From Hyalangium ruber (GTDB taxonomy: Bacteria; Myxococcota; Myxococcia; Myxococcales; Myxococcaceae), in assembly GCF_034259325.1 (NCBI RefSeq), contig NZ_JAXIVS010000004.1, forward strand, positions 1 to 64,000: 64,000 nucleotides of DNA, given 5' to 3'. The position numbers and the translations under genes were made by a program. Positions 8,734 through 60,032 of this stretch are shown piece by piece. The notes beneath the pieces are model-generated. The model saw only the letters and a program-made list of their open reading frames with translations. It did not search any database and was not told the DNA's origin. Every line of letters begins with the position of its first letter. The stretch's first letter is position 1.

Positions 8734-8745
8734 GGGGAGAAACGG

Positions 8746-9264
8746 ATGACGAACCAGGAGCCGGATGCCGCGGGCAAGGCCGTCGGGTACATTCTGGGCT
8801 TTCTGATCATCGGTGGCGCGATCGCGATGCTGATCGCGAGCTTCTACGTGTCCCCCGAGGCGCAGACAGACAGCGGTGGCTCGCTCCAGATGTTCCTTCG
8901 CTACTCTGGAGGGATCATCCTCGGATTGGGTGTCATGGGCCTGCCCATCGGGATCATTCTCCACCAGGAGAACCGGAAGAAGGCCGCCCGGCTCCGGGAG
9001 CTCAAGGCCTCGGCGGTTCCCGGGGTGCTGCGCATCGTCAGCTTCGAGCAGCTGTATGCCAACGAAGACTCCGTGGAGCTCTCGCTCGACGTCGAGATCA
9101 CCGTGCCCTCACGCCAGCCCTACCGGATGGCGCTGAAGCAGTGGATCCCCACCGCCTACGTCGGCCGGCTTCGCCCGGACGAGCGGCTGCCCGTTCGGGT
9201 TCCCGCCTCCGAGCCTGGGACGCTGTTCATCGATTGGGGAGGAAAAGCGGAGCCCGGCGTATGA
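8746..9264 (+). CDS. Small membrane protein in the vgrG cassette
   Basis: The 172-residue product has two hydrophobic segments, about residues 14-34 and 50-70, followed by a soluble domain of about 95 residues with beta-strand character (VPGVLRIVSFEQLY, VELSLDVEITVP, PYRMALKQWIP). I do not recognise a named family. Its position between vgrG and the DUF2169 adaptor, 12 bp after vgrG and overlapping the next gene by 4 bp, suggests a role with the cassette, for example an immunity protein or an effector acting in the membrane. Neither can be shown from the sequence. Confidence 0.85.
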   Translation: MTNQEPDAAGKAVGYILGFLIIGGAIAMLIASFYVSPEAQTDSGGSLQMFLRYSGGIILGLGVMGLPIGIILHQENRKKAARLRELKASAVPGVLRIVSFEQLYANEDSVELSLDVEITVPSRQPYRMALKQWIPTAYVGRLRPDERLPVRVPASEPGTLFIDWGGKAEPGV

Positions 9265-12943: not shown

Positions 12944-12961
12944 GCGCGCAACACCTGCACC

Positions 12962-12968
12962 AAGGAGG
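12962..12968 (+). promoter_or_regulatory. Shine-Dalgarno deciding the DUF3540 gene start
   Basis: AAGGAGG lies 4 bases before GTG 12973. It favours that GTG over the in-frame TTG at 12940, which has no comparable site and would overlap the upstream stop. Confidence 0.7.
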
Positions 12969-12972
12969 CTGT

Positions 12973-13623
12973 GTGGAGAAGCTGGCGGGAAGAATCGGGT
13001 CCACGGTGATTCAGCAGGATGTCGGCTCGGTGTTGTCCACCGAGGGCGCCTCGCTGAGCGTCGCCGTCGGCGGGACGCCCCACCCTGCGAAGCGCGCGCC
13101 GAGCTGCCTGCTCGCGCCCGAGCCGGGAGACCTCGTCCTCGTCACGTTCGTTCCGGGCCGGGGCTGCTACGTGCTCGCCGTGCTCGAGCGGGAAGAGGGC
13201 GCTCCGGGCCGGCTCGTCCATCAGGGCAACCTCGGGCTGCACCTCCCAGCCGGGCGCCTGACGGTGACGGCCTCCGAGGGAATGAGCGTCGTCTCCGGTC
13301 AGGACGTCTCCTGTGTCACGAGCTCTCTGCGGGCCCATGCCGTGGAGGCGAACCTCTCCATCGAGAAGGCCCACTTCCTCGGCACCTTCGCCAGCGTGCA
13401 GGTGGAGACGCTGAAGGTGATTGGCCGCTTCTTCGACTCGGTGCTGGAGCGCTTCTCGCAGCGCGTGCGGCGCTCGTACCGGCAGGTGGAGGAGGTGGAC
13501 TCCGTGCGCGCCGAGCAGCTCGACTACATGGCTTCCAAGAACGTCAGCGTGCGCGGCCGCAACGCGCTCGTCACCGCCGAACAGCTCGTGAAGCTGGACG
13601 GCGATCAGGTCCACCTGGGCTGA
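12973..13623 (+). CDS. DUF3540 family T6SS accessory protein
   Basis: This 216-residue protein matches the DUF3540 pattern found next to vgrG, DUF2169 and DUF4150 genes: an N-terminal beta-barrel-like part (AKRAPSCLLAPEPGDLVLV, then YVLAVLERE), followed by a beta-helix stretch (LHLPAGRLTVTASEGMSVV, VEANLSIEKAHFLG) and a helical segment near the end (FSQRVRRSYRQVEEVD). Such proteins are thought to form a VgrG-like OB-fold plus needle piece of the effector-loaded tip, but no reaction is known. It follows the pentapeptide gene by 29 bp and precedes the PAAR-like gene by 16 bp. Confidence 0.87.
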   Translation: MEKLAGRIGSTVIQQDVGSVLSTEGASLSVAVGGTPHPAKRAPSCLLAPEPGDLVLVTFVPGRGCYVLAVLEREEGAPGRLVHQGNLGLHLPAGRLTVTASEGMSVVSGQDVSCVTSSLRAHAVEANLSIEKAHFLGTFASVQVETLKVIGRFFDSVLERFSQRVRRSYRQVEEVDSVRAEQLDYMASKNVSVRGRNALVTAEQLVKLDGDQVHLG

Positions 13624-13639
13624 GGCCCGAGGAGCTCGC

Positions 13640-14032
13640 ATGTTCGCCAATACGCAGATGGGTGGAGTCGACATGGGCTTTCCGGACGTCTGCCTCACGC
13701 CGATGCCCGCGCCCACTCCCGTGCCCTACCCCAACATCGCCGCGGGTCCGATGGGCGTCCCCGCAGCCTACAAGGTCATGTTCCAGTGTACCCCCGCGCA
13801 CAACCTGGGAACGGTGGTCCCCCTCACCAACGGGGACAACGCGGGTGTCGCGATGGGCATGGCCTCGGGCACCGTCATGGGGCCTTCCCGCCACCTGACG
13901 GGCGCCTTCAGCGTGCTCGTCGGGGGCATGCCCGCCACGCGCGTGGGCAGCGTCTCCCTCCAGAACTCCACCAACTGTCCGGGCGCGCGGCTGGTGCCCA
14001 GTCAGGTCAAGGTGTTGCTGCTCGCGCCCTGA
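13640..14032 (+). CDS. DUF4150/PAAR-like spike-tip protein
   Basis: The 130-residue product fits the DUF4150 (PAAR-like) family: MFANTQMGGVDMGFPDVCLTP, an NIA segment with PTPVPYPN, then GDNAG, ASGTVMGPSR, a strand-turn pattern ending in GMPATRVG, and SVSLQNSTNCPG. PAAR and PAAR-like proteins form the sharp metal-stabilised cone on top of VgrG and carry or recruit effectors. This one is a single domain with no toxin extension, so cargo must be supplied by other genes, perhaps through the DUF2169 adaptor upstream. It closes the operon and is convergent with the histidine kinase gene 6 bp away. Confidence 0.9.
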   Translation: MFANTQMGGVDMGFPDVCLTPMPAPTPVPYPNIAAGPMGVPAAYKVMFQCTPAHNLGTVVPLTNGDNAGVAMGMASGTVMGPSRHLTGAFSVLVGGMPATRVGSVSLQNSTNCPGARLVPSQVKVLLLAP

Positions 14033-14038
14033 AGCCCC

Positions 14039-16066
14039 TCAGTGGGGCGGCACGCTGGGCGCGGCCCGCTCCCCGCCCTCCGCCGTGGGCGCCTCGGACT
14101 GGGAGAGGAACTCGTCCAGCGCGCCCACGTCGATGGGCTTGCGGAACACCGCGTCCACCAGTGCCAGGTTGGCCCGGTTCTGTCCCCGCACGTCCATTCC
14201 GGTGACGATGGCCAGCAGCGCCTGCGGCGTGCGCTTTCGCAGCTCGCGCGCCAGCTCCCAGCCGGAGATCTCCGGCATCAGCGCGTCCAGCAGCGCCGCG
14301 TCGAAGCGCCGCTTCTCCCAGAGCTGCAGCGCCACCTCCGCGCTCGGGGCGACCTGCACCTCGTAGCCCTCGTCGCCCAGCACCTCCGCCATCATCCGCG
14401 CATTGTCCAGGTCGTCATCCACCACCAGCACGCGGCGCGTCTGCTGGAAGCGCCGTGGGCCCGTCACCGCCACCTGGGGCGCGTGCTCCTCGACTCCCGC
14501 CTCGCGCACCTGGGGCAGGCGCACCACGAAGGCCGCGCCCTTCCCGCTGTCCGCGTTCTCCACCGTCAGCTCGCCGCCCCAGCGCTGCACCTGCGCCTGC
14601 ACCACCGCCAGTTGCAGCGCGTGCTGCGCCGCCCCCGCCTCCCGCTGCAGCGGGTCGAACAGCCGCGCCAGCTCCTCCACCGCGTACGGCGGTCCCTCAT
14701 CTTGAATGCGCAGCTCCAGCCGGCCCTCGCCATCGGGACGCGTCGTCAGCGCCAGCCGTCCGCCCCGCTCCATCCGGTCCTTGGCCGCCAGCAGCAGGCT
14801 CACCACCAGCTCGCGCAAGAAGCCCGCGTCGGCTCGCACCGAGCCCGGATCGCCCAGGACCAGGTCCACCCCCAGCGGGTGCTCGCCCTGCTCCAGCTCG
14901 CCGCGCGCCAGCTCCAGCGCCTCGCGCACCGCCGTGTCCAGCGGCACGTCCGTGAGCACCTCCTCGGTGCGCTGAACGTTGAACTCCTGCAGCCGGCTCA
15001 CCAGCTCGCCCACCTGGCCCACCGTCTTGTCCAGCGCGTCCAGGTGCTCGGGCTTGAACTCGCGCCTCAGCAGCGTGATTCGCAGGCGCAACACGTTGAG
15101 GAAGTTGTTGAGCGCGTGCGCCGCCCCGCTGGCCAACTGCCCCAGCGCCTGCGCCCGGGTGCGCTGCAAGAGCCGCCCCTGCAGCCGCCGCAGCTCGTCC
15201 TGCGCGCTCATCAGCTCCCGCGTCTTCGTGGCCGCCTCGGTCCGGTCCGTCATCGTCTGGATGACACCGGCCAGCTCGCCGCCCTCCTCCCAGATGGGCG
15301 TGGCGCTCATCTCCAGGCTCGCCTCGCCGCCGCCGGGGCGCTCCACCACCATCATCACCCCGCGCACCGGCCCGCGCTCCTTGAGCGCCCTCATGAAGGG
15401 CAGGTCCGTCACCCGAAAGGGCTCACCCGTGGCGTGGCGCGCGTTCACCTGCGCCAGCACCGGCGCCAGCGCGGTGGTGGCCCGCTCTCCCACCACCGAG
15501 CGCATGGGCACGCCCAACAGCCGGCTCACCGGCGGCGTGGCGAAGGATACCCGCCCATCCGCCTCGGCCAGGAGGATGCCCACGTCCATGTGGTGCAGCA
15601 CCGACTCCATCACCGCTGCTTCGCGGAAGCGCACCTCCTCCGTCCTCAGCACCCGCGCGAAGGAGGCCTGCGCCGAGGCGTTCGCCTCTCCCACCAGCTC
15701 GTTGATGAGCTCGGCCACCCCCGGCTCCACCTCCTGGCCATGGCGCCGGGAGTAGACGCGCAGCAGCACCGCCTGGAGCGCCTTGAACTCGCGCGCCAGA
15801 TCCTCCGACTCGAAGCGCTGGTCGTACCGGAACGCGCCGTGCGGGCGCACCACCTCGGGCCACAGCTGCACCACTTCGTCCGGCCGATCCTTGAGCAGCC
15901 GGGCCAGCTCCTCCAGCAGCCGCCTCAGGGGCGCGCGTAAATCGCGGCCCGGCAGGTCCAGCTCGTACAGCTCCTCCCGCAGGCGCTTGGCCCACAGGCG
16001 CGCGATGCGCTCGCGCTCCTCCTGTAGCAACTCGGACAGCGCGTCGATGGGTTCGATGGGCTCCAC
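14039..16066 (-). CDS. PAS-containing hybrid histidine kinase with degenerate ATPase domain and REC domain
   Basis: The 675-residue protein has a helical N-terminal sensor region (about 1-140), a PAS domain (about 150-275), a coiled coil, a DHp helix with His317 (QLASGAAHALNNFLN), an HATPase-like region (about 410-520) and a receiver domain (about 545-665) with DDD and a phospho-acceptor Asp near 594 and FRKPID. The ATPase motifs are damaged: the N-box reads SLLLAAKD (the key Asn is Ala427), G1 is DEGPP rather than DxGxG, and the G2 region is AAQHALQL with no GxGxG. It may therefore be a scaffold or phosphatase rather than an active kinase. No membrane segment is seen. The GTG start at 16066 is tentative. 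It diverges from the DUF2270 gene. Confidence 0.85.
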   Translation of the reverse strand: MEPIEPIDALSELLQEERERIARLWAKRLREELYELDLPGRDLRAPLRRLLEELARLLKDRPDEVVQLWPEVVRPHGAFRYDQRFESEDLAREFKALQAVLLRVYSRRHGQEVEPGVAELINELVGEANASAQASFARVLRTEEVRFREAAVMESVLHHMDVGILLAEADGRVSFATPPVSRLLGVPMRSVVGERATTALAPVLAQVNARHATGEPFRVTDLPFMRALKERGPVRGVMMVVERPGGGEASLEMSATPIWEEGGELAGVIQTMTDRTEAATKTRELMSAQDELRRLQGRLLQRTRAQALGQLASGAAHALNNFLNVLRLRITLLRREFKPEHLDALDKTVGQVGELVSRLQEFNVQRTEEVLTDVPLDTAVREALELARGELEQGEHPLGVDLVLGDPGSVRADAGFLRELVVSLLLAAKDRMERGGRLALTTRPDGEGRLELRIQDEGPPYAVEELARLFDPLQREAGAAQHALQLAVVQAQVQRWGGELTVENADSGKGAAFVVRLPQVREAGVEEHAPQVAVTGPRRFQQTRRVLVVDDDLDNARMMAEVLGDEGYEVQVAPSAEVALQLWEKRRFDAALLDALMPEISGWELARELRKRTPQALLAIVTGMDVRGQNRANLALVDAVFRKPIDVGALDEFLSQSEAPTAEGGERAAPSVPPH

Positions 16067-47744: not shown

Positions 47745-48707
47745 TTAGAGGTTCTCGCCGGTGTCGTGCCGGTTCTGGAACATGAAGCGCTCGGCGGGCA
47801 TGCGCCGGGCACGGAGGGCCCAGTTCCACCACGGCATCTCATTCGCGGGTTGATAGGGAATGCGTCGCAAGAGGTACCCAGGCACCGCGGGGTACAGGTG
47901 GTGAAGCTCGTGCGCATCGAATTGGAGCAGCACGCCCACCGAGAACCACGAGGGGAATCGGAGTGAGCGGGTGAAGACGCCCTGCTCCGCCGCAGCGAAA
48001 GGCCGCACCTCTTCGCCTCCGCTGCGCTTCATCGGAATATGCGTGTGCTGGCTGAGCAGGATGACGTCCAGGAAAACGAGGCTCAGCAGCAACCCCAGCC
48101 CCAACAAGCGTAAGAGCTGCACGGGACCGAGCCAGGCCACCACGCCTCCATAGAGGAACACCAGCCCCGCCGCATCCAGCGCGAAAGCGAGCCGATGTCT
48201 GCGCTCGGGGAACATCCGCCACAGCCTGCGCATGTGCCAGAAGTTGCTCACCCGGTAGAGCACCGAGAACAGAGGGATCCACCAGCGCCAGCAGGTGTTG
48301 ATGAGCGCTCTCTCCATGGGCGCTAGCGGTCTCGGAACGAGCCCAGCGGTGGTCGGATCCCTGTCCTGCCAACCCGTCCACTTGTGATGCTGACCATGCA
48401 CGGCAGTCCACACCGTGAAAGGGATTGCACAGAACACGCTGGCCACTCGCCCCACCACGGCATGCAGGCGTCGCGTCTGGAAGAGCGTGCGGTGTCCCGC
48501 CTCGTGCAGCAGGACGAACCATTGAACCAGCGCCACGGACAGCAACACCTGCCCCACGAGCCACAAAGCCACTCCCGGCTGGGCTGAGAGCCAGAGCGCG
48601 AGCGCCGTCACCGCCGAGAAGCCCAGGACGATTCCAGCGCCGGCGGCATCACTCGGCCGCAGATGCATCACCTCGCGAGGACTCGGGGGACGGCATTCAA
48701 CCTGCAT
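47745..48707 (-). CDS. Membrane fatty acid desaturase
   Basis: This 320-residue integral membrane diiron enzyme has three His boxes: HEAGH (about 70-74), HGQHHKWTG (about 103-111) and HELHHLYP (about 271-278). It has four or more hydrophobic segments. The layout fits acyl-lipid or sphingolipid desaturases and beta-carotene-ketolase-like proteins. GGAGGAG lies just before ATG 48707. Its start faces that of the CarS-like gene 62 bp away, so both are probably controlled by the same short divergent region, which ties it to the lipid operon. The position it would desaturate is unknown. Confidence 0.9.
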   Translation of the reverse strand: MQVECRPPSPREVMHLRPSDAAGAGIVLGFSAVTALALWLSAQPGVALWLVGQVLLSVALVQWFVLLHEAGHRTLFQTRRLHAVVGRVASVFCAIPFTVWTAVHGQHHKWTGWQDRDPTTAGLVPRPLAPMERALINTCWRWWIPLFSVLYRVSNFWHMRRLWRMFPERRHRLAFALDAAGLVFLYGGVVAWLGPVQLLRLLGLGLLLSLVFLDVILLSQHTHIPMKRSGGEEVRPFAAAEQGVFTRSLRFPSWFSVGVLLQFDAHELHHLYPAVPGYLLRRIPYQPANEMPWWNWALRARRMPAERFMFQNRHDTGENL

Positions 48708-48769
48708 GGGACTCCTCCGCGAATCGGATGCACGAACGCATCCGCGCAATTCCTTGCACGAGAGGGACC

Positions 48770-49384
48770 ATGTCGTGGACCTGGACAGGCAGCGCGGACC
48801 CCAGCACGTTGGATCCGCTGCGCTGCGCGCTCTTCCTCATCTCCGCATTCATCCTCGCGGGCGCGGCACAGACGTGGTGGTTCAAGAGCCCGCGCTCCGC
48901 GCGGTTCGCGCTCCCACTGGATGGCGGGCGCACCTTGCGAGGCCGCCGCCTGCTCGGCGCGAACAAGACGTGGAAGGGCTTCGTGGTGATGGTGCCCGCG
49001 GCGATGGTGGCCTTCGCGCTGCTGGCAACCGCCGCTCGCGCGCTGCCGGGCCTGAGCGAGGGACTGTGGCCGCTGACGCCGCTCCAGTACGCCCTGCTCG
49101 GAGGGAGCGCGGCGCTGGGGTTCATGCTCGGTGAGCTGCCCAACTCCTTCATGAAGCGGCAGCTCGGTATCGCTCCGGGCTCGGCGCCGACGAGTCCCTG
49201 GGGACGGTGGCTCGGCTTCGCCGTCGATCGGCTCGATTCCATCGTGGGGATGCTCCTGGCCTTGAGCCTGCTGGTCCCCGTGAGTTGGCGGGTCTGGCTC
49301 TTCGTGCTGGCCGTGGGCCCCGCCATCCACTGGCTCTTCAACGTCGCGCTGTATGCCCTCGGGGTGAAAGCGAGGCCCGCGTGA
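48770..49384 (+). CDS. CDP-archaeol synthase-like (CarS family) membrane protein
   Basis: The 204-residue protein has about five membrane helices and matches the CarS/PF01864 type: LPLDGGRTLRGRRLLGANKTWKGF near 53-76 (here split as DGGRTLRGRRLLGANKTWKG) carries the CTP-binding pattern, and LGELPNSFMKRQLGI is the second conserved loop, then FAVDRLDSIVG with the Asp-containing catalytic motif. In archaea CarS makes CDP-archaeol from unsaturated archaetidic acid and CTP; bacterial homologues are of unknown substrate and could activate an ether-lipid phosphatidic acid. AGAGGG precedes ATG 48770, and the next GTG overlaps the stop. Confidence 0.85.
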   Translation: MSWTWTGSADPSTLDPLRCALFLISAFILAGAAQTWWFKSPRSARFALPLDGGRTLRGRRLLGANKTWKGFVVMVPAAMVAFALLATAARALPGLSEGLWPLTPLQYALLGGSAALGFMLGELPNSFMKRQLGIAPGSAPTSPWGRWLGFAVDRLDSIVGMLLALSLLVPVSWRVWLFVLAVGPAIHWLFNVALYALGVKARPA

Positions 49385-52047
49385 GCGCGCTCTTTCGTCG
49401 CTTCGAGGAGGCCGAGCAGGTCGAGGAGGTGGGCGGCAAGGCTCACTCGCTCGGGAGGATGCAACGGCTCTCCATTCCGGTGCCCGAGGGCTTCATCGTC
49501 ACCAACGCCGCCTTCCAGGGCTTCCTCTCCCAAGACGGGCTGGGCGAGTACATCCGTGGACTCCATGCAGGGCTGCGGCGCGAAGACCTGCCCGCCCTGG
49601 AGGCCGCCTCGCAGCGCATCCAGGAACTCGTCCTCACGGCCCCGCTCCCCGCATCCTTCCGGGAGCAGCTCGCGGCCTGGCGCTCACGCTGGCTGGAGGG
49701 CGAGGAGCTCATCGTCCGCAGCTCCGCCGTGGGCGAGGACTCGCAGGAGGCCTCCTTCGCGGGACAGCTCGACTCGCACCTGCACGTGCGCACCCCCGAA
49801 GAGCTGGAACGTGCGCTCGCCGCGTGCTGGGCCTCGTACTGGTCCCGACGCTCGCTCTCGTACCAGCTCTCGCGCGGAGTCCCCCTGCGGGGAATGGGCG
49901 TGGTGGTCCAGCGGCTCATCCCCTCGCGAGTCGCGGGGGTCCTCTTCACCCGAGGGCCCGCGGGGGCTCTCGGAGAAGAGATGCTCGCCGAGTACTGCTA
50001 CGGCCAGGGCGAGGCGCTCGTCTCCGGTCGGCTCAACCCGGGCAGCTTCACCATCTCGCGCGGAGACTACCGCTGGCGCCTCCTCGCCACGCCGGAGCAG
50101 GAGGAAGACGGCGCGGCGGAACTGCTCGACACGGAGCGCGTGGCCCAGCTCGGCCGGCAGGGGCTGCTTCTGGAGGAGAAGTTCGGAGGCCCTCAGGACA
50201 TCGAGTGGACGATCGACGGCGACGGGCACCTCTACTTCGTCCAGGCCCGGCCCATCACCGCGCCACTTGGGGAGAAGAAGCCACCTCCCTCCGAGGAGGC
50301 TCCGGGAGCGCTCTGGTCCAACGCGAACATCAGCGAGAACTTCCCAGGCCCGGTGACGCCGCTGCTCTACTCGGTGGCGGCCGAGGGCTACCGTTGCTAC
50401 TTCCGCAACCTTGCCCGAGCGTTTGGACTCTCCTCACGGCGACTCGAGCGGATGGAGTCCCCGCTGCGCCACCTCATCGGAGCGCACGGCGCGCGGCTCT
50501 ACTACAACCTGACGAACATCCACGCGGTCCTGCGGGCGGCGCCCTATGGCGAGCTGCTTGCCCGGTACTTCGACCAGTTCGTGGGCGCGCCAGCGGCTCC
50601 GGATGCACCCGCGGACAAGGCCCGTGAGTCTCAGCTCTCCCGCGCGCTGGAGCTGGGAGTCATCGTCTTCAAGACGGGCCGGCTCTACCTCTCGATGGAG
50701 CAGCGGCTCCAGGAGTTCGAGCGCACCGTGGACACGTTCTGTGCCCGGGCTCACCCGAAGCGGCTCGCCGACAAGCCGCTCTCCGAGCTGCGCGAGGACC
50801 TGCGGGGCTTCCTGGACATCCGCTTCAACCGCTGGACTCACGCCTCGCTGGCGGACGCTGCCGCGATGGTCTGCTACGGAGGGCTTCAGCAGTTCCTGCG
50901 CCACGAGTTCCCCGCTCCCGAGCAGGCCGCCCTGCACAACACCCTGCTCAAGGGCCTCTCGGACCTGGCGAGCAGCGCGCCCATTGACGCGCTGTGGGCC
51001 TTGTCGCGGCGGGTCCGCCAGAGCCCTGAGCTGCGCACGCTGTTCTCGACCTGCACGGGCAGCGAGCTGCTGCAACGGGTACGCGCGGGCGCCTTCCCGG
51101 AGTTCAACGCGGCGCTCGATGACTTCTTGGAGCGCTTCGGCTTCCGAGGCTCCGGCGAGCTGATGCTCACCCAGCCCAGCTTCCAGGAGGACCCGACTGG
51201 GCTGCTGGAGATCCTCAAGGGCTATGTGGGGCTCGAAGGGCCCTCCCCGGCCGAGCGCCTGAGCACCCAGACCGCGGAGCGCGAGGCCATCACCGCGCGG
51301 ATCCGCCAAGAGCTGGGTCGGCGACGCTGGGGAGGCTTCGTCCCGTTCACCGACCGGGCTCGACTGTTCGAGCACCTCCTGCGCTGGACTCAGCAGGCGG
51401 TGGGCTTCCGTGAGCGCGCGCGGATGAAGCAGGCCCTGCTCTACACGCGGCTGCGCCGGATCGCCCTCGCCATCGGGGAGCGACTGGTGAAACAGGGACA
51501 CCTGCGCGCGACGGACGACATCTTCTTCCTGACCTATCCGGAGATCGACGCGCTGCTGTCGGGAACGGCGATGTTCGCGGGAGGCACGGCGGCGCTGGTG
51601 GCGCTGCGGCGCGCACACCACGAGGAGCTCAGCCGGCTGAACCCGCCGGACACCTTCACCTTGCGGGAGGGCGAGGCACTCACGGAAGCCCTCAGCGATC
51701 CTTTCGAGGACGCCGCCCAAGACGGCGGGCCGCTCACGGGGACAGGCACCTGCGGGGGCACGGTCACCGCGCGTGGCACGGTGATGCGAGACCTCTCGGA
51801 CTCCCACCTGCTCACCGCGGGCGACATCCTCGTCACGCGCCAGACGGACCCAGGGTGGGCCCCCGTGTTCTTCCTCATCAAGGGCCTGGTGATGGAGCGC
51901 GGCGGCATGCTGTCGCACGGCTCCATCCTCGCGCGGGAGTTCGGCCTGCCCTCCGTCGTGGGGGTGAAGGACGCCACGCAGCGCATCCGCCAGGGCCAGA
52001 CGCTCTCGGTGGACGGAGACCTGGGCCATGTCCGCGCGCTCGACTGA
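49381..52047 (+). CDS. PEP-synthase/rifampin-phosphotransferase-like dikinase
   Basis: The 888-residue protein has an N-terminal ATP-grasp module (about 1-305: VGGKAHSLGRM, IPVPEGFIVT, ELIVRSSAVGEDSQEASFAGQ, VAGVLFTRG, DIEWTIDGDGHLYFVQARPI), a large helical middle region and a C-terminal phosphohistidine domain (about 785-885: GDILVTRQTDPGW, MERGGMLSHGSILAREFGLPSV, with the phospho-His in LSHGSI). It lacks the PEP-binding TIM barrel of PEP synthase, as in rifampin phosphotransferase, where the middle domain binds the acceptor. It should split ATP to AMP and Pi and phosphorylate an alcohol; here a lipid or glycerol acceptor is likely but unproven. It overlaps the gene before by 4 bp and the gene after by 20 bp. 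Confidence 0.88.
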   Translation: MSALFRRFEEAEQVEEVGGKAHSLGRMQRLSIPVPEGFIVTNAAFQGFLSQDGLGEYIRGLHAGLRREDLPALEAASQRIQELVLTAPLPASFREQLAAWRSRWLEGEELIVRSSAVGEDSQEASFAGQLDSHLHVRTPEELERALAACWASYWSRRSLSYQLSRGVPLRGMGVVVQRLIPSRVAGVLFTRGPAGALGEEMLAEYCYGQGEALVSGRLNPGSFTISRGDYRWRLLATPEQEEDGAAELLDTERVAQLGRQGLLLEEKFGGPQDIEWTIDGDGHLYFVQARPITAPLGEKKPPPSEEAPGALWSNANISENFPGPVTPLLYSVAAEGYRCYFRNLARAFGLSSRRLERMESPLRHLIGAHGARLYYNLTNIHAVLRAAPYGELLARYFDQFVGAPAAPDAPADKARESQLSRALELGVIVFKTGRLYLSMEQRLQEFERTVDTFCARAHPKRLADKPLSELREDLRGFLDIRFNRWTHASLADAAAMVCYGGLQQFLRHEFPAPEQAALHNTLLKGLSDLASSAPIDALWALSRRVRQSPELRTLFSTCTGSELLQRVRAGAFPEFNAALDDFLERFGFRGSGELMLTQPSFQEDPTGLLEILKGYVGLEGPSPAERLSTQTAEREAITARIRQELGRRRWGGFVPFTDRARLFEHLLRWTQQAVGFRERARMKQALLYTRLRRIALAIGERLVKQGHLRATDDIFFLTYPEIDALLSGTAMFAGGTAALVALRRAHHEELSRLNPPDTFTLREGEALTEALSDPFEDAAQDGGPLTGTGTCGGTVTARGTVMRDLSDSHLLTAGDILVTRQTDPGWAPVFFLIKGLVMERGGMLSHGSILAREFGLPSVVGVKDATQRIRQGQTLSVDGDLGHVRALD

Positions 52048-52840
52048 GGCCCTCGCCTACCTGCGCGAGCGCTACCCGCTCTCGCGCTTCCTTCCGCTGG
52101 CCATGTTCCTGGCGACGGCGGGGCATGCGGGCTCCAGCACCTGGGAGCCGCCGGGACTGGCCCGGAGCGTGCTGCTCGCACTGGGGCTTGTGCTCCAGTT
52201 CCGGCTCTGGGATGACCTCGAGAGCCTTCCCGAGGATCGCCGCGAGCACCCTGACCGCGTCCTCTGTCAGGCCCGCTCGCGCACGCCGTTCCTGGCCCTG
52301 CTGGGCATCACCGTGGCGTTCAACACCGCGCTGCTCCTGGCCTCCATTCCCGCGCTCCTCGGATACGCGGCGCTGTGCGGGGCAGCACTCTGCTGGTACC
52401 GGTGGCTGGCGCCCCGCCTGCCACACGGAGCGCTCACGGCCCATGGCGTGCTCCTCAAGTACCCCGCGCTGGTAGCGATCCTCCACGCGGCCTCGGGAGA
52501 AGGAACGCTCCCCCCGCTGGTGCCGAGCCTTGTCTACCTCTGCTTCTGCGTCCACGAGCTGCTCCACGACCGCAGGCTCCTGAGCAGCCCTGGCATGCCG
52601 AGACTGCTGCGAGCCGAGATGCTCACCCTGTGGGCCGCATCGGTGGCGCTGTGCCTGAGTTCCCCTGCCCCCAGCGTGCTCTGGGGCGCTCAGCTCGCCC
52701 TGAGTCTCGGCGCGCCCGGGCTGCTCATGGCCCTCTACCAGCGAAGCCTCGGGCGGGAGGGCGTAGGCCCGCTCGCGGATGCCGTCTTCGCCCTCTCCTT
52801 CCTGCAGACCCTGAGCTTCACCCTGAGGAGCCGTCCATGA
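52028..52840 (+). CDS. UbiA-like membrane prenyltransferase-family protein
   Basis: The 270-residue protein has about seven to nine hydrophobic segments. Two polar loops fit the UbiA superfamily: FRLWDDLESLPEDRREHP near 56-73 as the first Asp-rich motif, and VHELLHDRRL near 175-184 as the second. UbiA enzymes join a prenyl diphosphate to an aromatic or glycerol phosphate acceptor. Both motifs are weaker than in quinone enzymes, so the reaction may differ. ATG 52028 lies inside the end of the dikinase gene (20-bp overlap), and the stop overlaps the methyltransferase start by 4 bp. Confidence 0.75.
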   Translation: MSARSTEALAYLRERYPLSRFLPLAMFLATAGHAGSSTWEPPGLARSVLLALGLVLQFRLWDDLESLPEDRREHPDRVLCQARSRTPFLALLGITVAFNTALLLASIPALLGYAALCGAALCWYRWLAPRLPHGALTAHGVLLKYPALVAILHAASGEGTLPPLVPSLVYLCFCVHELLHDRRLLSSPGMPRLLRAEMLTLWAASVALCLSSPAPSVLWGAQLALSLGAPGLLMALYQRSLGREGVGPLADAVFALSFLQTLSFTLRSRP

Positions 52841-53802
52841 CCGCCGCCGTCCGTCCCCTGGAGCCCCCCGCCCCTTCCCTCTTCGAGCCCGTCGCCTGTT
52901 ACTGCTGTGGCAGCGAGTCCCGCACGGACTTCATCACCGCGCAGGACGACCTCACCGGCAAGCCCGGCACCTTCCGCTTCGTGCGCTGCGAGGCGTGCGG
53001 GTTGGTGTACCAACACCCGCGCATCGTCGTGGAGCGCATCTCCGACTACTACGACGACGAGTACATCGCCCACCGCAAGAAGACCGACTGGGGCGTGCTC
53101 ACACCGCTGTACGAGCACGTCATGGGCAAGCACGACCGAGACAAGGACCGGATCGTCAGCCGCTACGTGAAGCTCGGCACGGGCAGCGAGGTGCTCGACG
53201 TGGGATGCGCGGTGGGCACCTTCCTCCAGCGGATGCGCCAGCGCCACGGCGCCCGCGTGTGCGGCGTGGACTTCAAGGATCTCCGAGGCCACCCCTCGCT
53301 GGAGGGCGTCGACTTCCGCCATGGCCTCTTCTACGAGCAGGACCTCCAGGACGAGCGCTTCGACCTCGTCACCATGTGGCACTTCCTGGAGCACGACTAC
53401 GACCCACGGCGGACGCTGAACAAGGCGCGCTCCGTGCTGAAGAAGGAGGGGCGACTCGTTATCGAGGTGCCGCGCCTGGACAGCGTCACCTTCAAGCTCT
53501 ACGGCGACCGCTGGCCCGGCCTGCAGGCGCCCCAGCACACCGCGCTCTACGACAAGCAGAGCCTGCTGCGGCTGGTGGAGGACACCGGCCTCAAGGTCCT
53601 CGATTACCTGCCCTACGGCGCCTTCCCCGCCTACTTCTACCTGTTCGCGGGCGCGGCCTTCCGACTCCTCCAGGGCAAGGGGCTCGACCTGTCCAAGGCG
53701 ATCTACCCGTACTTCGCCGGGCAGCTCGCGCTCACCCCCGTGCTGCTGCTCGAGAAGCGGCTGAACCTGGCCATGCAGACGGTCATCTGCGAGAGGCGGT
53801 AA
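52837..53802 (+). CDS. SAM-dependent methyltransferase with N-terminal zinc-ribbon-like motif
   Basis: The 321-residue protein begins with Cys pairs CYCCGSES and RCEACGLVYQ, a zinc-ribbon head found in class I methyltransferases such as those in sugar and lipid pathways. The SAM-binding domain (about 105-215) has VLDVGCAVGTFLQRM, FDLVTMWHFLEH and RTLNKARSVLKKEGRLVIEVP. The C-terminal third is hydrophobic (YFYLFAGAAFRLL, LALTPVLLLEKRLNLA), as if bound to membrane. It lies in the lipid operon with 4-bp overlap upstream and 7 bp before the acyltransferase, so it may methylate a lipid head group. Confidence 0.88.
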   Translation: MTAAVRPLEPPAPSLFEPVACYCCGSESRTDFITAQDDLTGKPGTFRFVRCEACGLVYQHPRIVVERISDYYDDEYIAHRKKTDWGVLTPLYEHVMGKHDRDKDRIVSRYVKLGTGSEVLDVGCAVGTFLQRMRQRHGARVCGVDFKDLRGHPSLEGVDFRHGLFYEQDLQDERFDLVTMWHFLEHDYDPRRTLNKARSVLKKEGRLVIEVPRLDSVTFKLYGDRWPGLQAPQHTALYDKQSLLRLVEDTGLKVLDYLPYGAFPAYFYLFAGAAFRLLQGKGLDLSKAIYPYFAGQLALTPVLLLEKRLNLAMQTVICERR

Positions 53803-53809
53803 AGGCCCC

Positions 53810-54577
53810 ATGTCTCGCTCGACCGGAGCCCGCACGGCCCTGAACATCGCCGTGTCCTCGGGGCTCGTTACCCTCACCGCGCTCGCCATGCTCGTGGCGC
53901 GAGCAGTCACCTTCGGCCGGGCGCGCCGCTTCTGCGCCGAGGTGCTCGGCGCGTGGATGTCCCGCGCCATCCTGCGGCAGTTCGGCGTGACGCTCGTCCT
54001 CCATGAGCACGGACCACGGACCACGGGCCCGTGTGTCTACACGTTCAACCACACCTCCACGCTGGACATGTTCATCCTGCTCGCGCTGCGCCTGCCGAGG
54101 ACGCGCTACTTCATGAAGCGGCGCTCGTGGGTCTTCCCCTCGTTCGGCCTCGCCGCCTGGATGGTGGGGACGTTCTTCACCCCGCCCCAGCGCCTGCCCC
54201 GAGCGCGGGTGCGCTGCTTCCAGGCCGCCACCGCGAAGCTCCAGCGAACCGGGGACTCCGTGCTCCTCAGCCCCGAGGGCACTCGCGTCACCACGGGGAA
54301 GATCGGCCCCTTCAACAAGGGCACCTTCCACCTCGCGACCGAGATCCAGGCGCCCATCGTCCCGCTCTTCATCCAGATTCCCCCCGAGGGAAACCCCGGC
54401 AAGGGGCTGGCCGCGCACCCCTGCACCGTCCACGTCCACGTGCTGCCCCCGGTGCCCACCACGGGCTGGCGGCTCGAGGACCTGGAGCGGAACAAGGAGC
54501 ACGTCCGCCAGCGCTACGTCGACTTCCTCGCTCACCTGAACGCCGAAGGCACGCCCTCCCTCCCCACCGCCGCCTGA
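53810..54577 (+). CDS. PlsC-type 1-acylglycerol-3-phosphate acyltransferase
   Basis: The 255-residue protein has an N-terminal membrane helix (about 12-35), the catalytic NHTSTLD (about 80-86, NHx4D), RRSWVFPSFGLA, and LLSPEGTRVT with GPFNKGTFHLA, the blocks of LPLAT acyltransferases. It would add an acyl chain to a lysophospholipid or a 1-alkyl glycerol phosphate. It lies 7 bp after the methyltransferase gene and 10 bp before the ElbD-like gene, so it belongs to the same transcript. Confidence 0.92.
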   Translation: MSRSTGARTALNIAVSSGLVTLTALAMLVARAVTFGRARRFCAEVLGAWMSRAILRQFGVTLVLHEHGPRTTGPCVYTFNHTSTLDMFILLALRLPRTRYFMKRRSWVFPSFGLAAWMVGTFFTPPQRLPRARVRCFQAATAKLQRTGDSVLLSPEGTRVTTGKIGPFNKGTFHLATEIQAPIVPLFIQIPPEGNPGKGLAAHPCTVHVHVLPPVPTTGWRLEDLERNKEHVRQRYVDFLAHLNAEGTPSLPTAA

Positions 54578-54587
54578 GTCCACACCT

Positions 54588-57500
54588 ATGACGCCTCCTC
54601 CTCGAACCCTGGGCGAGCTGCTGCGCCAGCGCGCCGAACGAACCCCCGACGCTCGGGCCTACACCTTCCTCGCGGATGGCGAGACGGAAACGGAGAGCCT
54701 CACGTACGCCGAGCTCGACCAACAGGCGAGCGCCATCGCGGCACGGATCCACGCGCTGGGAGGCGCGGGTGAACGCGCGCTGCTGCTCTACCCTCCGGGC
54801 CTGGACTTCATCGCCGCGTTCTTCGGGTGCCTCTACGCCGACACCGTGGCGGTGCCGGTGTTCCCTCCGGCCCCGAGCGGGGATGACCGCGGACTGGCCC
54901 GGCTGCGAGGCATTGCCCAGAACGCCCGGCTGCGCCTGCTACTCACCACGGAGGCCATCACGGAGATGGCGGAGGCGCTCCTGCCGGGCGCGCCCGAGCT
55001 GGCCCAGGTCCAGTGGCTCGCTACGGACGCGGTGGCGCGCGAGGAGGCCGGACGCCTCTCGCCCTCGGTGCGCGAGGGGCTCGCGTTCCTGCAGTACACC
55101 TCTGGCTCCACCTCCTCGCCCAAGGGCGTGCGGGTAAGCCACGCGAACCTGCTCCACAACCTGGAGTACGGCAACGCCATCGAACAGAACGACGCGAGCA
55201 GCGTGTCCGTCTCGTGGCTGCCGGTCTACCACGACATGGGGCTCATCGAAGGGACGCTGCTGCCGCTGTTCGGGGGCTATCCGGCCTACCTCATGCCGCC
55301 CGGAGCGTTCCTCCAGCGGCCCACGCGGTGGCTCGAGGCGCTCTCCCGCTACGGTGCCACCAACAGCGGCGGCCCCAACTTCGCCTACGAGCTCTGCCTG
55401 CGCAAAGTGTCTCCTGAGCAGCGCGAGCGCTTGGACCTGAGCCGCTGGCGCGTGGCGTACAACGGCGCGGAGCCCGTGCGCCGCGAGACACTGGAGCGCT
55501 TCGTCCAGACCTTCACACCCCAGGGGCTCCGGTGGAAGTCCATCCTGCCGGTGTACGGGCTGGCCGAGGCCACCCTGGTCGTCACCGGTTCTCGCCGGGG
55601 AACCACGCCCTCTTTCCGGGACGTCGACGCCGCCACGCTGCGAGCCGGAGAGGCGATCGAGCCGCTGACACCGGACACTCCCACCACCTCGCTCGTCGGC
55701 TGCGGAGAGTCGCGCCATGGCGTGGAGGTGTTGATCGTCGCTCCCCAGACGCGCACCCGCCGCGAGGAGCGGCAGGTCGGGGAGATCTGGATCGCGGGCC
55801 CCAGCGTCGCGGAAGGCTACTGGGACAACACCGAGGCCACCGCGCGGACCTTCGGGGCGCGGCTGGCGGACGGAGCGGGGCCGTACCTGCGCACCGGCGA
55901 CCTGGGCTTCCTGCGGGAAGGCGAGCTGTTCGTGACCGGGCGCATCAAGGACGTGCTCATCCTCCGAGGGAAGAACCACTACCCGCAGGACCTGGAGCGC
56001 ACCGTGGAGCAGGTCCATCCAGCGCTCCGGCCTGGATGCATCGCGGCGTTCTCGATCGAGCACGGCGGCGAGGAGCGCGCGGTGGTGCTGGCGGAGGTGG
56101 AACCACGAAAGCTCCTGGAGCCCGAGTCTCTCCCCTCTCTGCTGCGAGCCATCCGTACCGAGGTGGCGGCACGGCACGGCATCGCGCTGCACGCGGTGAG
56201 CCTCGTCCCACCGAAGACCCTGCCCAAGACGTCGAGCGGCAAGCTGCAACGCTTCGCCTGCCGGGAGGCGTTCCTGGAGGGCAGCATGAGCGAGCTGGCG
56301 CGGGACGTCACGGCCCAGCCCGCGCCGAGTCCCACGGTCGCGCCAGAAGCCGAGCCCGTCCTGGCCATGCTCCTGGAGTACGTCGCGCTCCAGATCGGAG
56401 TCCCTGCGGACTCCGTGGACCCTCAGCTCCCGCTCACCCGCTCCGGGCTCGACTCACTCGGCCTCATGGGGCTGCTCGAAGTCGTCTCCCGCGAGGCAGG
56501 AAGGGAACTCCGCCTCGAAGAGCTGCTCGAGCACCCTCACCTCGAGTCGCTCGCGAGGCTGGCGACCGGAGAGCGCTCCGAGGCACCCGCCGCCGACCGA
56601 CTGGAAGTGATGCTCGCGGACGCGGTGCTCCCCCCGGAGATTGCTCCCGCCGACGCGGCGCCACCGCGCTCGGGCCCTCCCCGTGACGTGCTCCTCACCG
56701 GAGCAACAGGCTTTCTCGGGGCCCAGCTCCTCCGAGACCTGCTGGTGCGCACCTCCGCGCGGGTCCACTGCCTCGTCCGCGCCGCCGGTGGCCTGAGCAG
56801 CCGAGCAAGGCTCCGCGCCGCGCTCCAGGCCCGTGGCCTGTGGGAAGACAGCTTCGAGGCACGCCTGACCGTGGTGGAAGGAGACCTCGGGCTGCCGCTG
56901 CTGGGGCTGGACGAAGCGCTGTTCGACGCACTGGCGCGCTCGACGGACGCCGTCATCCACTCCGCCGCAGCGGTCAACTGGGTCTTCCCCTACTCCGCGC
57001 TCCGGGAGCAGAACGTGGTGGGCACGCGCACGCTGCTGGCGCTGGCTTCGCTCCACCGCCGGAAGCCGTTCCACTTCGTCTCCTCCCAGCTCGTCTGCCA
57101 CTCCAGCCTGCGCGCCCCCCGGCAGGTCCTCGAGCTGGAAGACATGCTCCCCGAGCTGCCCGGCCTGCACCTGGGCTATGCCCAGACCAAGTGCGTCGCC
57201 GAGCACCTGGCCCGCGCCGCGGCCAACCGAGGGCTGCCGGTGCGCATCTACCGCCCTCCGTTCCTGTTCGGCAGCAGCGCCACGGGCCACTGCGCCACCG
57301 ACGACTTCCTCGCCGCGCTCATCAAGGGGTGCGTGCAGATGGGCAGCGCGCCGGACATGGACTGGGAGCTCGACTGCTGCCCCGTCGACTTCGTGAGCCG
57401 AATGATTCTCGAGGTGGCCTCCCGCGAGCCGAGCGGCTTCGCGGTGCTGCACCCGGTGCCGCCACGGGCACGACACTGGCGCGAGTGCGTGCTGTGGATG

Positions 57501-59015
57501 AGCCTGCTGGGCTACCCGGTCCACCTCACCCCGTACGGCGAGTGGCTCCGACAGCTCCAGCGCGAGGCCGCCCACCCCGAGCATGCGCTCCATTACCTGC
57601 GCTCGTTCTTCCTGCGTCGCCGGAAGGAGGCCGGCGGCCTCACCCTCCCCGAGCTCTACGAGACGGGCCGGCGCAACCGCATCACCTCCCGGCTGACGCG
57701 CCAGGAGCTGGCCGGCTGGGACGTTCCCTGCCCGCCGCTGGACGCGCACCTGCTGGACCGGTACTTCGCCTCCTTTATAGAGCAGGGGCATCTGCCCGCC
57801 GTGCCGCGACACCGCCAGGGCGAGCGCCACGAGGCACGGACGCGAGTCGAGCCCGCGCTGCTCGAACGCGCGCTGCGACAGGTCTCCGCGAAGGCTCGCC
57901 TCCTTGAAGCGCACCGCATGGAGCGCCTCGGAGAGCACGGCATCACCACGGAGCTGACCGCCTGGAGGCACTCCCGGGGCCTGGGCCTCTTCCGCTACCA
58001 GCTCCAGCACGAGGCCGGCGTGCTACCGGTCGTGGTCAAGGTGAAGCCCTCGGACGAAGAGGTCCTCGACGTCGCCACCCGCGTGGCGCACCAATGTCAT
58101 CCCCAGCTAGGCCAGGCGTTCGCGCGCTTCCCCCGACTGCTGGGCTTCACCGGCACCCACGTGCGAGAACTGGAGCTCTACGCGCAGAAGGACCCTCGCT
58201 TCACCCGCCACGCGCCCGCCTGCCTCGCGGCGCACCGGGACGACGAAGCACGCCGCTGGCTCCTGGTCCTCGAAGACCTCCAGCCGCTGGAGCTGCTGGA
58301 CAGCGCCGACACCGAGGGCGCCTGGAGTCGCCCCCACCTCGAGGCAGCGGTGCGAGGCGCCGCGAGCCTCCACGCCATCGGCCTGGGCTCAAACGACTGG
58401 ACCGGACTCACCCTGCCCCCACCCGTCACCACTGCGGACATGGTCAGCGCGGGGGAACTCTGGCGGGCCCTGGAGTCCCACAGCCGCGAGTGCTTCGCGC
58501 AGGCGGGCGGCGGCGAGCTGCCAGCGCTCCACCGCCAGCTCGTGGAAGAACTCGGCCGCTGGTGGGAGCCCCTGGAGCGCCTCCCCCGAACGCTCATCCA
58601 CAACGACTTCAACCCGCGAAACCTCGCCCTGCGCCAGGACGCGGAGGGCCTTCGGCTCTGCGCCTACGACTGGGAGCTCGCCACGCTCGGCCTGCCCCAG
58701 CACGACCTCGCGGAGCTGCTCTGCTTCACCCTGACCGAGCGGACCTCCACGGACGAGGTAGAGCACTACCTGGAACTCCACCGCGCCACGCTGGAGCGAG
58801 AATCCGGGCGCCCGATGGACCCCGCGGCGTGGGAGCTTGGGTTCCGCGCCTCGCTCGGAGACCTCCTGGTGAACCGCCTGGCCGCCTACACGGTGGCCCA
58901 CCGCTTCCGCCGGCAGCGCTTCCTGGAGCGGGTGCTGAAAACCTGGCGCCGGCTTCACGAATTGTTCCCCCTCGTCACGCTAGAGCAGCGGGCCCGCCGG
59001 GCCACCGGCTCCTGA
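54588..59015 (+). CDS. ElbD-like acyl-AMP ligase/ACP/thioester reductase/phosphotransferase fusion
   Basis: This 1475-residue multienzyme has four parts. Residues about 1-565 are a fatty acyl-AMP ligase (LQYTSGSTSSPKGVRVS near 167, YHDMGLIEG, KTSSGKLQRF). About 580-655 is an acyl carrier protein with the phosphopantetheine Ser in SGLDSLGLM (about 623). About 700-1030 is a thioester reductase (VLLTGATGFLGAQLL, then YAQTKCVAE). About 1110-1460 is an APH-like phosphotransferase (HNDFNPRN near 1337, then YDWELA). It could load a fatty acid, reduce it to an aldehyde or alcohol, and phosphorylate an alcohol. This layout agrees with what I recall of ElbD, the myxobacterial ether-lipid enzyme; I cannot confirm homology domain by domain. 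Confidence 0.88.
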   Translation: MTPPPRTLGELLRQRAERTPDARAYTFLADGETETESLTYAELDQQASAIAARIHALGGAGERALLLYPPGLDFIAAFFGCLYADTVAVPVFPPAPSGDDRGLARLRGIAQNARLRLLLTTEAITEMAEALLPGAPELAQVQWLATDAVAREEAGRLSPSVREGLAFLQYTSGSTSSPKGVRVSHANLLHNLEYGNAIEQNDASSVSVSWLPVYHDMGLIEGTLLPLFGGYPAYLMPPGAFLQRPTRWLEALSRYGATNSGGPNFAYELCLRKVSPEQRERLDLSRWRVAYNGAEPVRRETLERFVQTFTPQGLRWKSILPVYGLAEATLVVTGSRRGTTPSFRDVDAATLRAGEAIEPLTPDTPTTSLVGCGESRHGVEVLIVAPQTRTRREERQVGEIWIAGPSVAEGYWDNTEATARTFGARLADGAGPYLRTGDLGFLREGELFVTGRIKDVLILRGKNHYPQDLERTVEQVHPALRPGCIAAFSIEHGGEERAVVLAEVEPRKLLEPESLPSLLRAIRTEVAARHGIALHAVSLVPPKTLPKTSSGKLQRFACREAFLEGSMSELARDVTAQPAPSPTVAPEAEPVLAMLLEYVALQIGVPADSVDPQLPLTRSGLDSLGLMGLLEVVSREAGRELRLEELLEHPHLESLARLATGERSEAPAADRLEVMLADAVLPPEIAPADAAPPRSGPPRDVLLTGATGFLGAQLLRDLLVRTSARVHCLVRAAGGLSSRARLRAALQARGLWEDSFEARLTVVEGDLGLPLLGLDEALFDALARSTDAVIHSAAAVNWVFPYSALREQNVVGTRTLLALASLHRRKPFHFVSSQLVCHSSLRAPRQVLELEDMLPELPGLHLGYAQTKCVAEHLARAAANRGLPVRIYRPPFLFGSSATGHCATDDFLAALIKGCVQMGSAPDMDWELDCCPVDFVSRMILEVASREPSGFAVLHPVPPRARHWRECVLWMSLLGYPVHLTPYGEWLRQLQREAAHPEHALHYLRSFFLRRRKEAGGLTLPELYETGRRNRITSRLTRQELAGWDVPCPPLDAHLLDRYFASFIEQGHLPAVPRHRQGERHEARTRVEPALLERALRQVSAKARLLEAHRMERLGEHGITTELTAWRHSRGLGLFRYQLQHEAGVLPVVVKVKPSDEEVLDVATRVAHQCHPQLGQAFARFPRLLGFTGTHVRELELYAQKDPRFTRHAPACLAAHRDDEARRWLLVLEDLQPLELLDSADTEGAWSRPHLEAAVRGAASLHAIGLGSNDWTGLTLPPPVTTADMVSAGELWRALESHSRECFAQAGGGELPALHRQLVEELGRWWEPLERLPRTLIHNDFNPRNLALRQDAEGLRLCAYDWELATLGLPQHDLAELLCFTLTERTSTDEVEHYLELHRATLERESGRPMDPAAWELGFRASLGDLLVNRLAAYTVAHRFRRQRFLERVLKTWRRLHELFPLVTLEQRARRATGS

Positions 59016-59204: not shown

Positions 59205-60032
59205 ATGAACTTCGATGTCAACGCACTCACGACGGAACTCATCACCAAGGGCACGAGCATCGGCCTGAAGCTCCTGGGCGCCCTGGCGCTGTGGATCATC
59301 GGCGGCTGGGTGGCCGGCATGGCGGTGCGGCTGGTGCGCAAGGGCATGGACTCGCGCAAGCTGGATGCGACCATCGCGCGCTACGTGGAGAGCGCGCTGG
59401 GGGTGTTGTTGAAGGTCGTCCTGGTGGTGGCCATCCTTGGCTACTTCGGCCTGGAGACGACCTCGTTCGCGGCGGTGCTGGCGGCGGCGGGCATTGCCAT
59501 CGGCACGGCGTGGTCCGGCATGCTGTCGCACTACGCGGCGGGCATCTTCATGGTGGTGCTGCGGCCCTTCAAGGTGGGTGACAGCGTCACCGCCGGAGGC
59601 GTCAGCGGGACGGTCGAGGAGATCGGCCTGTTCACCACGACCATCAACACGGGCGACAACGTGCGCACCTTCGTGGGCAACAACAAGATCTTCTCCGACA
59701 CCATCCAGAACTTCTCGGCCAACCCGCACCGGCGCGTGCTGCTGGAGGCGCAGCTGGCCCATGGCGACGACCACCGCGCGGCCATCAAGACGCTGCAGGA
59801 GAAGCTGGCGCAGATCCCCAACGTGAAGCAGACGCCGGCGCCGGACGTCTTCATCCAGAACTTCACCCTGGCCGGCCCGGTGCTGGCGGTGCGCCCGTGC
59901 TGCCACAATGACCACTTCGGTCAGGTGTCCGCCGACACCAACCTGGCCATCCGCGAGTCGGGCTTCTCGGTGCCGGAGACGCACTCGCGCGTCATCTCCG
60001 CCGTGCCCGCGCCCGCCAGCCGGGCGGCCTGA
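59205..60032 (+). CDS. mscS: Small-conductance mechanosensitive channel (MscS family)
   Basis: The 275-residue protein has three membrane helices (about 15-45, 62-85, 90-122). The pore helix AAAGIAIGTAWSGMLSHYAAGIF aligns with the Gly/Ala-rich TM3 of E. coli MscS, followed by the hallmark LRPFKVGDSV and a beta domain (EEIGLFTTTINTGDN, FSANPHRRV). It opens under membrane tension to release solutes in hypo-osmotic shock. ATG 59205 has AGGAG upstream. Its length is close to the family minimum. Confidence 0.94.
   Translation: MNFDVNALTTELITKGTSIGLKLLGALALWIIGGWVAGMAVRLVRKGMDSRKLDATIARYVESALGVLLKVVLVVAILGYFGLETTSFAAVLAAAGIAIGTAWSGMLSHYAAGIFMVVLRPFKVGDSVTAGGVSGTVEEIGLFTTTINTGDNVRTFVGNNKIFSDTIQNFSANPHRRVLLEAQLAHGDDHRAAIKTLQEKLAQIPNVKQTPAPDVFIQNFTLAGPVLAVRPCCHNDHFGQVSADTNLAIRESGFSVPETHSRVISAVPAPASRAA

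Follow-up and report, generated by a model that had tools for sequence, protein, structure and literature searches.

The stretch analyzed here, hereafter the window, comprises positions 1 to 64,000 of contig NZ_JAXIVS010000004.1 (G000:C4:1-64000) in the 10.8-Mb genome of Hyalangium ruber. Six plus-strand genes between positions 48770 and 59015 form a tightly packed operon with successive junctions of -4, -20, -4, +7, and +10 bp. In order, they encode a CarS-like CTP:lipid-phosphate cytidylyltransferase (carS, 48770 to 49384; an alternative upstream ATG at 48728 is possible), an ATP dikinase-type phosphotransferase (dik, 49381 to 52047), a divergent membrane protein of the UbiA superfamily (ubi, 52028 to 52840), an S-adenosylmethionine methyltransferase with N-terminal Cys pairs (mt, 52837 to 53802), a PlsC-type acyltransferase (at, 53810 to 54577), and a 1475-residue fusion of a fatty acyl-AMP ligase (FAAL), an acyl carrier protein (ACP), a thioester reductase (TR), and a lipid kinase (54588 to 59015). 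Both the packing and the gene identities had been named in the original prediction, a note made from the sequence alone, and both hold, the identities by Pfam and NCBIfam domain scans and, for the UbiA-like protein, by a predicted fold. That note had a desaturase gene (47745 to 48707, minus strand; PF00487, 4e-21, with three His boxes) facing the operon; instead, the two are divergent, with 62 bp separating the starts. Despite its opposite strand in the window, the desaturase belongs to the gene set, because in 8 of the 10 relatives with enough upstream DNA it is found upstream of carS in the same orientation. The set very probably represents a dedicated lipid pathway ending in CDP-lipid chemistry. 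More tentatively, and with somewhat less than even confidence, we propose that the product of the operon is an unusual phospholipid whose chain is most likely ether-linked, made through an archaeal-like logic fed with fatty chains.

The fusion protein carries the Pfam domains AMP-binding, PP-binding, NAD_binding_4, and EcKL. Its ligase region is of the FAAL type, and the FAAL-ACP-TR portion has MxcG-like similarity. The TR domain scores 300 bits against the TIGR01746 cut-off of 213, and the kinase domain scores 33.3 bits against a cut-off of 22 for the ecdysteroid kinase-like family PF02958. The only solved structure matched by a profile of the kinase is ACAD11 (E 0.0016), whose kinase domain phosphorylates 4-hydroxyacyl-CoA according to the accessible part of the source (PMC11342911). 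A structural model of the kinase domain had a pLDDT of 38.6 and was not used.

The original prediction likened this protein to ElbD of Myxococcus xanthus and raised the possibility of an elb gene order, and on both counts the comparison fails. As described in the available sections of PMC9131029, ElbD has FAR1-like, ACS, ACP, and C-terminal AGPAT domains and is encoded in the operon elbA-elbE; elbD homologues are also treated in excerpts of PMC9426513 and PMC11868695. The fusion has the order FAAL-ACP-TR-kinase, with a kinase in place of the acyltransferase, and its partners are CarS, dikinase, UbiA, and methyltransferase genes instead of elbA, B, C, and E, none of which neighbor it. Moreover, a separate and complete elbA-E-like operon lies on another contig of the same genome (G000:C7), in the order epimerase, HAD, 537-aa protein, 1468-aa ElbD-like protein, epimerase. 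This 1468-aa protein has the ElbD architecture (NAD_binding_4/Sterile/AMP-binding/PP/acyltransferase; L072), and the fusion aligns with it in three pieces at 25-34% identity. We therefore rejected orthology of the fusion with ElbD. The operon does resemble the elb system in activating a fatty acid, in using an ACP, and in having acyl reductase and acyltransferase functions, but given the different domain order and partners and the presence of a separate elb-like operon, the Elb-type ether lipid or plasmalogen synthesis first suggested for these genes appears highly improbable.

We scanned GTDB species genomes with an alignment of the kinase (A1) and kept the best 80 of 129 relatives as loci. 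The relatives were found by two short peptide patterns, so that counts are lower bounds, and gene presence at the loci was called by tblastn bit score. Two unrelated reductases occur as fusion partners of this kinase lineage: the TR in 20 loci and a domain resembling 3-hydroxy-3-methylglutaryl-CoA (HMG-CoA) reductase (HMGR) in 56, while 4 loci have neither. In a kinase tree of 82 rows, which omitted pieces of 850 bases or less, a single fully supported branch splits 21 TR rows (window included) from 56 HMGR rows, and the rows nearest to the window are from Gemmatimonadota. Since one kinase family has been joined to two unrelated reductases, the kinase probably acts on the alcohol made by the fused reductase. 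Not every protein matches the motif patterns used: the kinase pattern is missed at HxD in L105, L145, L157, and L158 and at DWE in L126, L132, L142, L148, and L144, and the TR pattern is missed at YxxxK in L147 and L148 and at the nucleotide motif in L089, L122, L123, and L142.

The catalytic Glu and His are each retained in 54 of 55 aligned HMGR-kinase proteins, and the catalytic Lys and Asp in all 55. We take human residues S684, K735, and H752 to be the HMG contacts of the canonical enzyme. The S684 position is Glu or Asp in 55/55 of the HMGR-like domains, K735 is not kept, and H752 is Asn in 52/55. We rejected HMG-CoA as the substrate of the HMGR-like domain, as the contacts to the HMG carboxylate are gone while the catalytic residues are retained. 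S684 and K735 are likewise absent from the stand-alone HMGR-like protein that L066 encodes near carS, dik, and an MMPL gene. In Myxococcota (L064, L065, L066, and L078, from G157, G183, and G191), a third kind of cluster combines carS, one or two dikinase genes, and an MMPL gene without a reductase-kinase; a FAAL-like gene is present in G183, and in G191 there is a nearby stand-alone gene for an HMGR-like protein in which the HMG contacts are changed.

In 20/20 TR-type loci, every detected gene lies on the kinase strand, and 19 of them have the order desaturase-carS-dik-ubi-mt-at-FAAL-TR-kinase as far as the contig reaches; in the exception (L147), the desaturase is downstream. The 10 TR-type loci with at least 8.4 kb of upstream sequence all contain carS, dik, and ubi together with the reductase-kinase, and they keep the carS-dikinase-UbiA-methyltransferase-acyltransferase-reductase-kinase order in four named phyla. 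Chance assembly of the operon genes is ruled out by this retention of order across phyla. The TR-type hosts, nearly all of them metagenome-assembled, belong to Gemmatimonadota, Acidobacteriota, Planctomycetota, Verrucomicrobiota, and Pseudomonadota. The UbiA-like gene was found in 1/58 genomes of the family, the window's own, and matches at E 0.01 or better occur in 3/195 genomes of the phylum, two of them marginal. The CarS family is found in 10 of the same 195 genomes and some match to the kinase domain in 65, with strong kinase matches (E under 1e-80) restricted to three genomes, the window's own plus G169 and G187; in the latter two, the kinase is fused to an HMGR domain. A search of plasmids for the UbiA-like and CarS proteins gave no match.

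The HMGR-type clusters, found in Gammaproteobacteria, Myxococcota, and others, share with the window the kinase family, the dikinase, UbiA, and CarS-like proteins. They differ in having an HMGR-like reductase for the TR, another AMP-binding protein, and MMPL and LolA-like genes, and unlike the TR-type clusters they have no match to the desaturase, methyltransferase, or acyltransferase. Among the 24 non-actinobacterial HMGR-type loci that have flanks of 8 kb or more in either direction, dik and UbiA genes are present in 23, CarS in 20, and DUF3419 in 3. HMGR-type isolates include Thalassolituus marinus (L116), T. alkanivorans (L118), and Marinobacter sp. SS5-14b (L091), through which this cluster is open to experiment. 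The Marinobacter locus encodes LolA-like, MMPL, UbiA-like, HMGR-kinase, AMP-binding, CDP-alcohol phosphatidyltransferase, and CarS-like proteins (the last scoring under the cut-off). It also encodes, at 13793-14908, an approximately 370-aa protein that has no Pfam match and looks GNAT-like by eye, with homologues in 28 HMGR-type loci. In a planctomycetal contig (L082), a TR-type cluster is followed at 11959-14899 by genes for AMP-binding, UbiA-like, and dikinase proteins that resemble their HMGR-type counterparts, and both cluster kinds may thus meet in one genome.

These clusters raise the alternative that the product is a secreted or surface-exposed phosphorylated alkyl compound of the natural-product kind and not a membrane lipid. 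The natural-product style of the FAAL-ACP-TR portion with its MxcG-like similarity, the MMPL and LolA-like genes of the HMGR-type clusters, and the pairing of an HMGR-kinase with polyketide synthase and nonribosomal peptide synthetase genes in Nocardiaceae all fit such a product. However, CarS, the phosphatidyltransferase, the BtaA-like protein, and the PlsC-type enzyme are lipid enzymes, and an MMPL match occurs in 0/20 TR-type loci; we regard this alternative as improbable for the operon. The Nocardiaceae loci themselves (L157, 8615-18468, and L158) contain HMGR-kinase and UbiA-like genes, followed in L157 by a ketosynthase-ACP-thioesterase protein and a condensation-adenylation-carrier protein, a set that perhaps makes a natural product from an alkyl phosphate.

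We return to the proposed phospholipid and to the enzymes that would make it. The window CarS-like protein matches PF01864 (7e-12; 46.1 bits versus a cut-off of 22), and a profile of 9 relatives, all of which have the motif KR..DRxDS, matches the CDP-archaeol synthase structure 5guf (E 6.8e-6). The protein falls below the cut-off of the CDP-archaeol synthase equivalog NF003114 (75.2 versus 148 bits). The window genome holds its own CdsA in one clear copy, and CarS discriminates against phosphatidic acid, as stated in the available text of PMC9385802; both points favor the proposed phospholipid.

The dikinase has PPDK_N (4e-66) and PEP-utilizers (2e-23) Pfam domains in the three-part architecture of PPDK_N, central domain, and mobile domain with the catalytic His. 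In alignments, this His is present in 11/11 TR-type rows, window included, and in all 30 of the 34 HMGR-type rows that cover the site (L092, L113, and L121 are gapped and L144 is broken there). The closest solved structures, 5fbs, 5hv2, and 5hv1, are labeled phosphoenolpyruvate synthase, and we take them to be rifampin phosphotransferases. Rifampin phosphotransferases and PRK06241 dikinases resemble the window protein in architecture and catalytic His, but it lies in a lipid operon and scores 355 bits against the rifamycin phosphotransferase cut-off of 999 (NF041857). We rejected rifamycin resistance as its role, as well as phosphoenolpyruvate synthase, for which the pyruvate, water dikinase model TIGR01418 gives 268 versus 740 bits.

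The UbiA-like protein has no Pfam match at 0.05. An AlphaFold model built from 11 sequences (pLDDT 88.2) is closest in fold to 4od5 (Z 18.7, 3.3 Å, 244 aligned residues), followed by digeranylgeranylglyceryl phosphate (DGGGP) synthase (6m31 and 7bpu, both Z 17.9; 4.7 and 4.5 Å over 258 and 259 residues), UBIAD1 (Z 16.5), and a membrane phosphoribosyltransferase (15.6), whereas the first match outside the UbiA superfamily is MoeN5 (Z 13.1). Foldseek by itself also points to DGGGP synthase (best E 1.6e-3). The model thus supports a UbiA fold. The first Asp-rich motif, RxWDDL(x)5DxxxHPxRVL, is present in the window protein and in 12/12 relatives. A profile of the HMGR-type UbiA proteins has DGGGP synthase as its only PDB match; their motif pattern is missed in 11/39. 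The UbiA alignment left out L119 and L136 (also L123 in its trimmed copy), and alignment A2 left out L123 and L136. The methyltransferase (PF13489, 9e-25) is the best-kept gene of the set, at 58-72% identity in relatives, with the Cys-pair pattern missed in L105, and the acyltransferase (PF01553, 1e-18) has HxxxxD in 16/16 relatives.

Evidence for the last steps comes mainly from relatives. A CDP-alcohol phosphatidyltransferase gene lies 3' of the kinase in TR-type loci L100, L108, and L110, and a blastp homologue occupies the same place in L081. Among NCBIfam models, the L108 protein scores best with archaetidylserine synthase (85 bits) and pssA (84 bits), in each case under the cut-off. AMP-binding, phosphatidyltransferase, and CarS regions occur in one open reading frame in L140, and AMP-binding and CarS regions are joined in L101. 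The window genome has five CDP-alcohol phosphatidyltransferases outside the operon, the nearest being 36% identical to that of L108. Across all 56 HMGR-type loci, CarS is present in 25 and DUF3419 in 6, where we presume the latter to be BtaA-like, and never are both present, as expected of two head-group routes acting on one core. DUF3419 has been linked to betaine-lipid synthase, as far as the accessible portion of PMC10685587 states. The use of CarS with a phosphatidyltransferase, or of DUF3419 instead, suggests a lipid core that is given varied head groups. The lipid and head-group idea of the original prediction is strengthened by these genes; its ether-lipid part loses its ElbD basis and survives on the UbiA, CarS, and archaetidylserine-synthase-like steps. 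In L063 (G112, 7772-10491), another carS is next to a CDP-alcohol phosphatidyltransferase gene and a gene for an amine-oxidase-like FAD enzyme, perhaps a separate archaeal-like lipid cluster.

Taken together, two phosphotransferases and a UbiA-fold protein suggest a route from alcohol to phosphate to diphosphate to chain transfer. The ligase domain would activate a fatty acid and load it onto the ACP, the TR would free the chain as a primary alcohol, and the fused kinase would phosphorylate it. The dikinase could then add a second phosphate to give an alkyl or alkenyl diphosphate, from which the UbiA-fold protein may move the chain to a backbone that carries a phosphate and is probably glycerol phosphate. 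If this protein works like DGGGP synthase in linking the two, an ether bond would follow. The PlsC-type enzyme would attach an acyl chain, the CarS-like enzyme would form a CDP-lipid, and a CDP-alcohol phosphatidyltransferase, encoded within the operon in some relatives and unlinked in the window, would add the head group; the desaturase and methyltransferase presumably tailor chain or head. Domain identities, the catalytic residues in most of the enzymes, and the conserved gene order are established and the UbiA fold is predicted, whereas every substrate in this scheme, the diphosphate step, the ether bond, and the glycerol backbone are inferred.

Several observations count against this scheme, the main chemical one being that the UbiA enzymes known so far act on diphosphates that are allylic or activated in a similar way, so that a saturated alkyl diphosphate would be an unsuitable substrate. 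The second Asp-rich motif of the UbiA-like protein is degenerate, a sequence profile of the TR-type proteins hits no UbiA structure in the PDB, such structures being reached through the fold comparison alone, and several TR-type relatives are only 187-215 aa long and have no C-terminal helices, which weakens the transfer step. The dikinase is assigned by architecture, and its substrate is a presumption. There is no gene for the backbone or for a first ether bond in the cluster and no phosphatidyltransferase gene in the window operon, FAAL is missing from TR-type loci L126, L142, and L148, and actinobacterial HMGR-kinases occur without dik.

Two other products were considered. If the alkyl phosphate itself were the CarS substrate, the result would be a CDP-alkyl compound and a single-chain phosphodiester lipid, with the UbiA-like protein and dikinase serving another branch, such as transfer from a cellular polyprenyl diphosphate. 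CarS requires just a lipid phosphate, and the shortened UbiA-like proteins argue against a strictly ether-forming role; yet this product leaves the acyltransferase without a clear role, and dik and UbiA genes occur together in 10/10 TR-type and 23/24 HMGR-type loci of the sets defined above, so that we consider it unlikely. The allylic objection would vanish if the acid were 2-unsaturated or isoprenoid. In the isoprenoid case, a prenyl acid would be converted to prenol, phosphate, and diphosphate, and the UbiA-like protein would transfer the prenyl group to an acceptor such as a lipid backbone. The HMGR-like domain derives from an enzyme whose substrate is 3-methyl-branched, and many HMGR-type hosts are hydrocarbon degraders. 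The window, however, encodes a FAAL-type domain and a fatty acid desaturase, and the genes scanned included no other isoprenoid gene, making an isoprenoid route quite unlikely.

The route that we propose resembles the archaeal pathway in having a transferase with a UbiA fold, a CTP transferase like CarS, and, though only in relatives, an archaetidylserine-synthase-like phosphatidyltransferase. It differs in that the chain would come from a fatty acid via ligase, reductase, and kinases, whereas the archaeal chain comes from geranylgeranyl diphosphate; the operon also has an acyltransferase and a desaturase, and no geranylgeranylglyceryl phosphate (GGGP) synthase or glycerol-1-phosphate dehydrogenase was seen in it. 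The accessible part of PMC7852524 describes a different set in Cloacimonetes, where GGGP and DGGGP synthases of the archaeal type occur in the absence of CarS, and the available sections of PMC12419801 treat other UbiA/HMGR neighborhoods and not this operon. We found no prior description of the operon in the searchable open-access PMC literature; each enzyme family is known, and the combination and product are provisionally new. For most bacteria, the synthesis of non-isoprenoid ether lipids is an open question, and a line is usually drawn between the lipid routes of archaea and those of bacteria. If our proposal is true, a candidate third route would be provided by a conserved and portable operon that joins fatty-acid reduction to steps by UbiA and CarS and to head-group addition, and it gives testable roles to CarS-like proteins, PRK06241-type dikinases, and HMGR-like domains without HMG contacts. 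The broader claim of a widespread, undescribed bacterial class of ether phospholipids made by an archaeal-type route from fatty chains, with two reductases recruited to one kinase lineage, is one that we hold well below even confidence.

The operon is flanked on its 3' side by a mechanosensitive channel gene (59205-60032) and, beyond the desaturase on the 5' side, by a cytochrome P450 gene (46072-47283). Three family genomes (G007, G011, and G008) showed no flank synteny, with only a downstream M3 peptidase matched, so that an empty site could not be shown in them. A foreign base composition is not clear, as the G+C content at third codon positions is 0.81-0.95 in the operon and 0.91-0.96 in three neighbors. 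Some contigs raise questions of identity: L061 (the G169 contig) and L092 (titled uncultured Candidatus Hydrogenedens) give 100% tblastn matches, and title and assigned phylum disagree. The kinase of L151, a metagenome-assembled contig titled Klebsiella pneumoniae, groups with that of a betaproteobacterial metagenome-assembled genome, and this contig is possibly mis-binned. In Streptomyces (L130, L134, L137, L141, and L153) and Actinomadura (L154, L156, and L159), an HMGR-kinase occurs with no dikinase or UbiA match nearby, and in Actinomadura it is preceded by a GH3-like gene.

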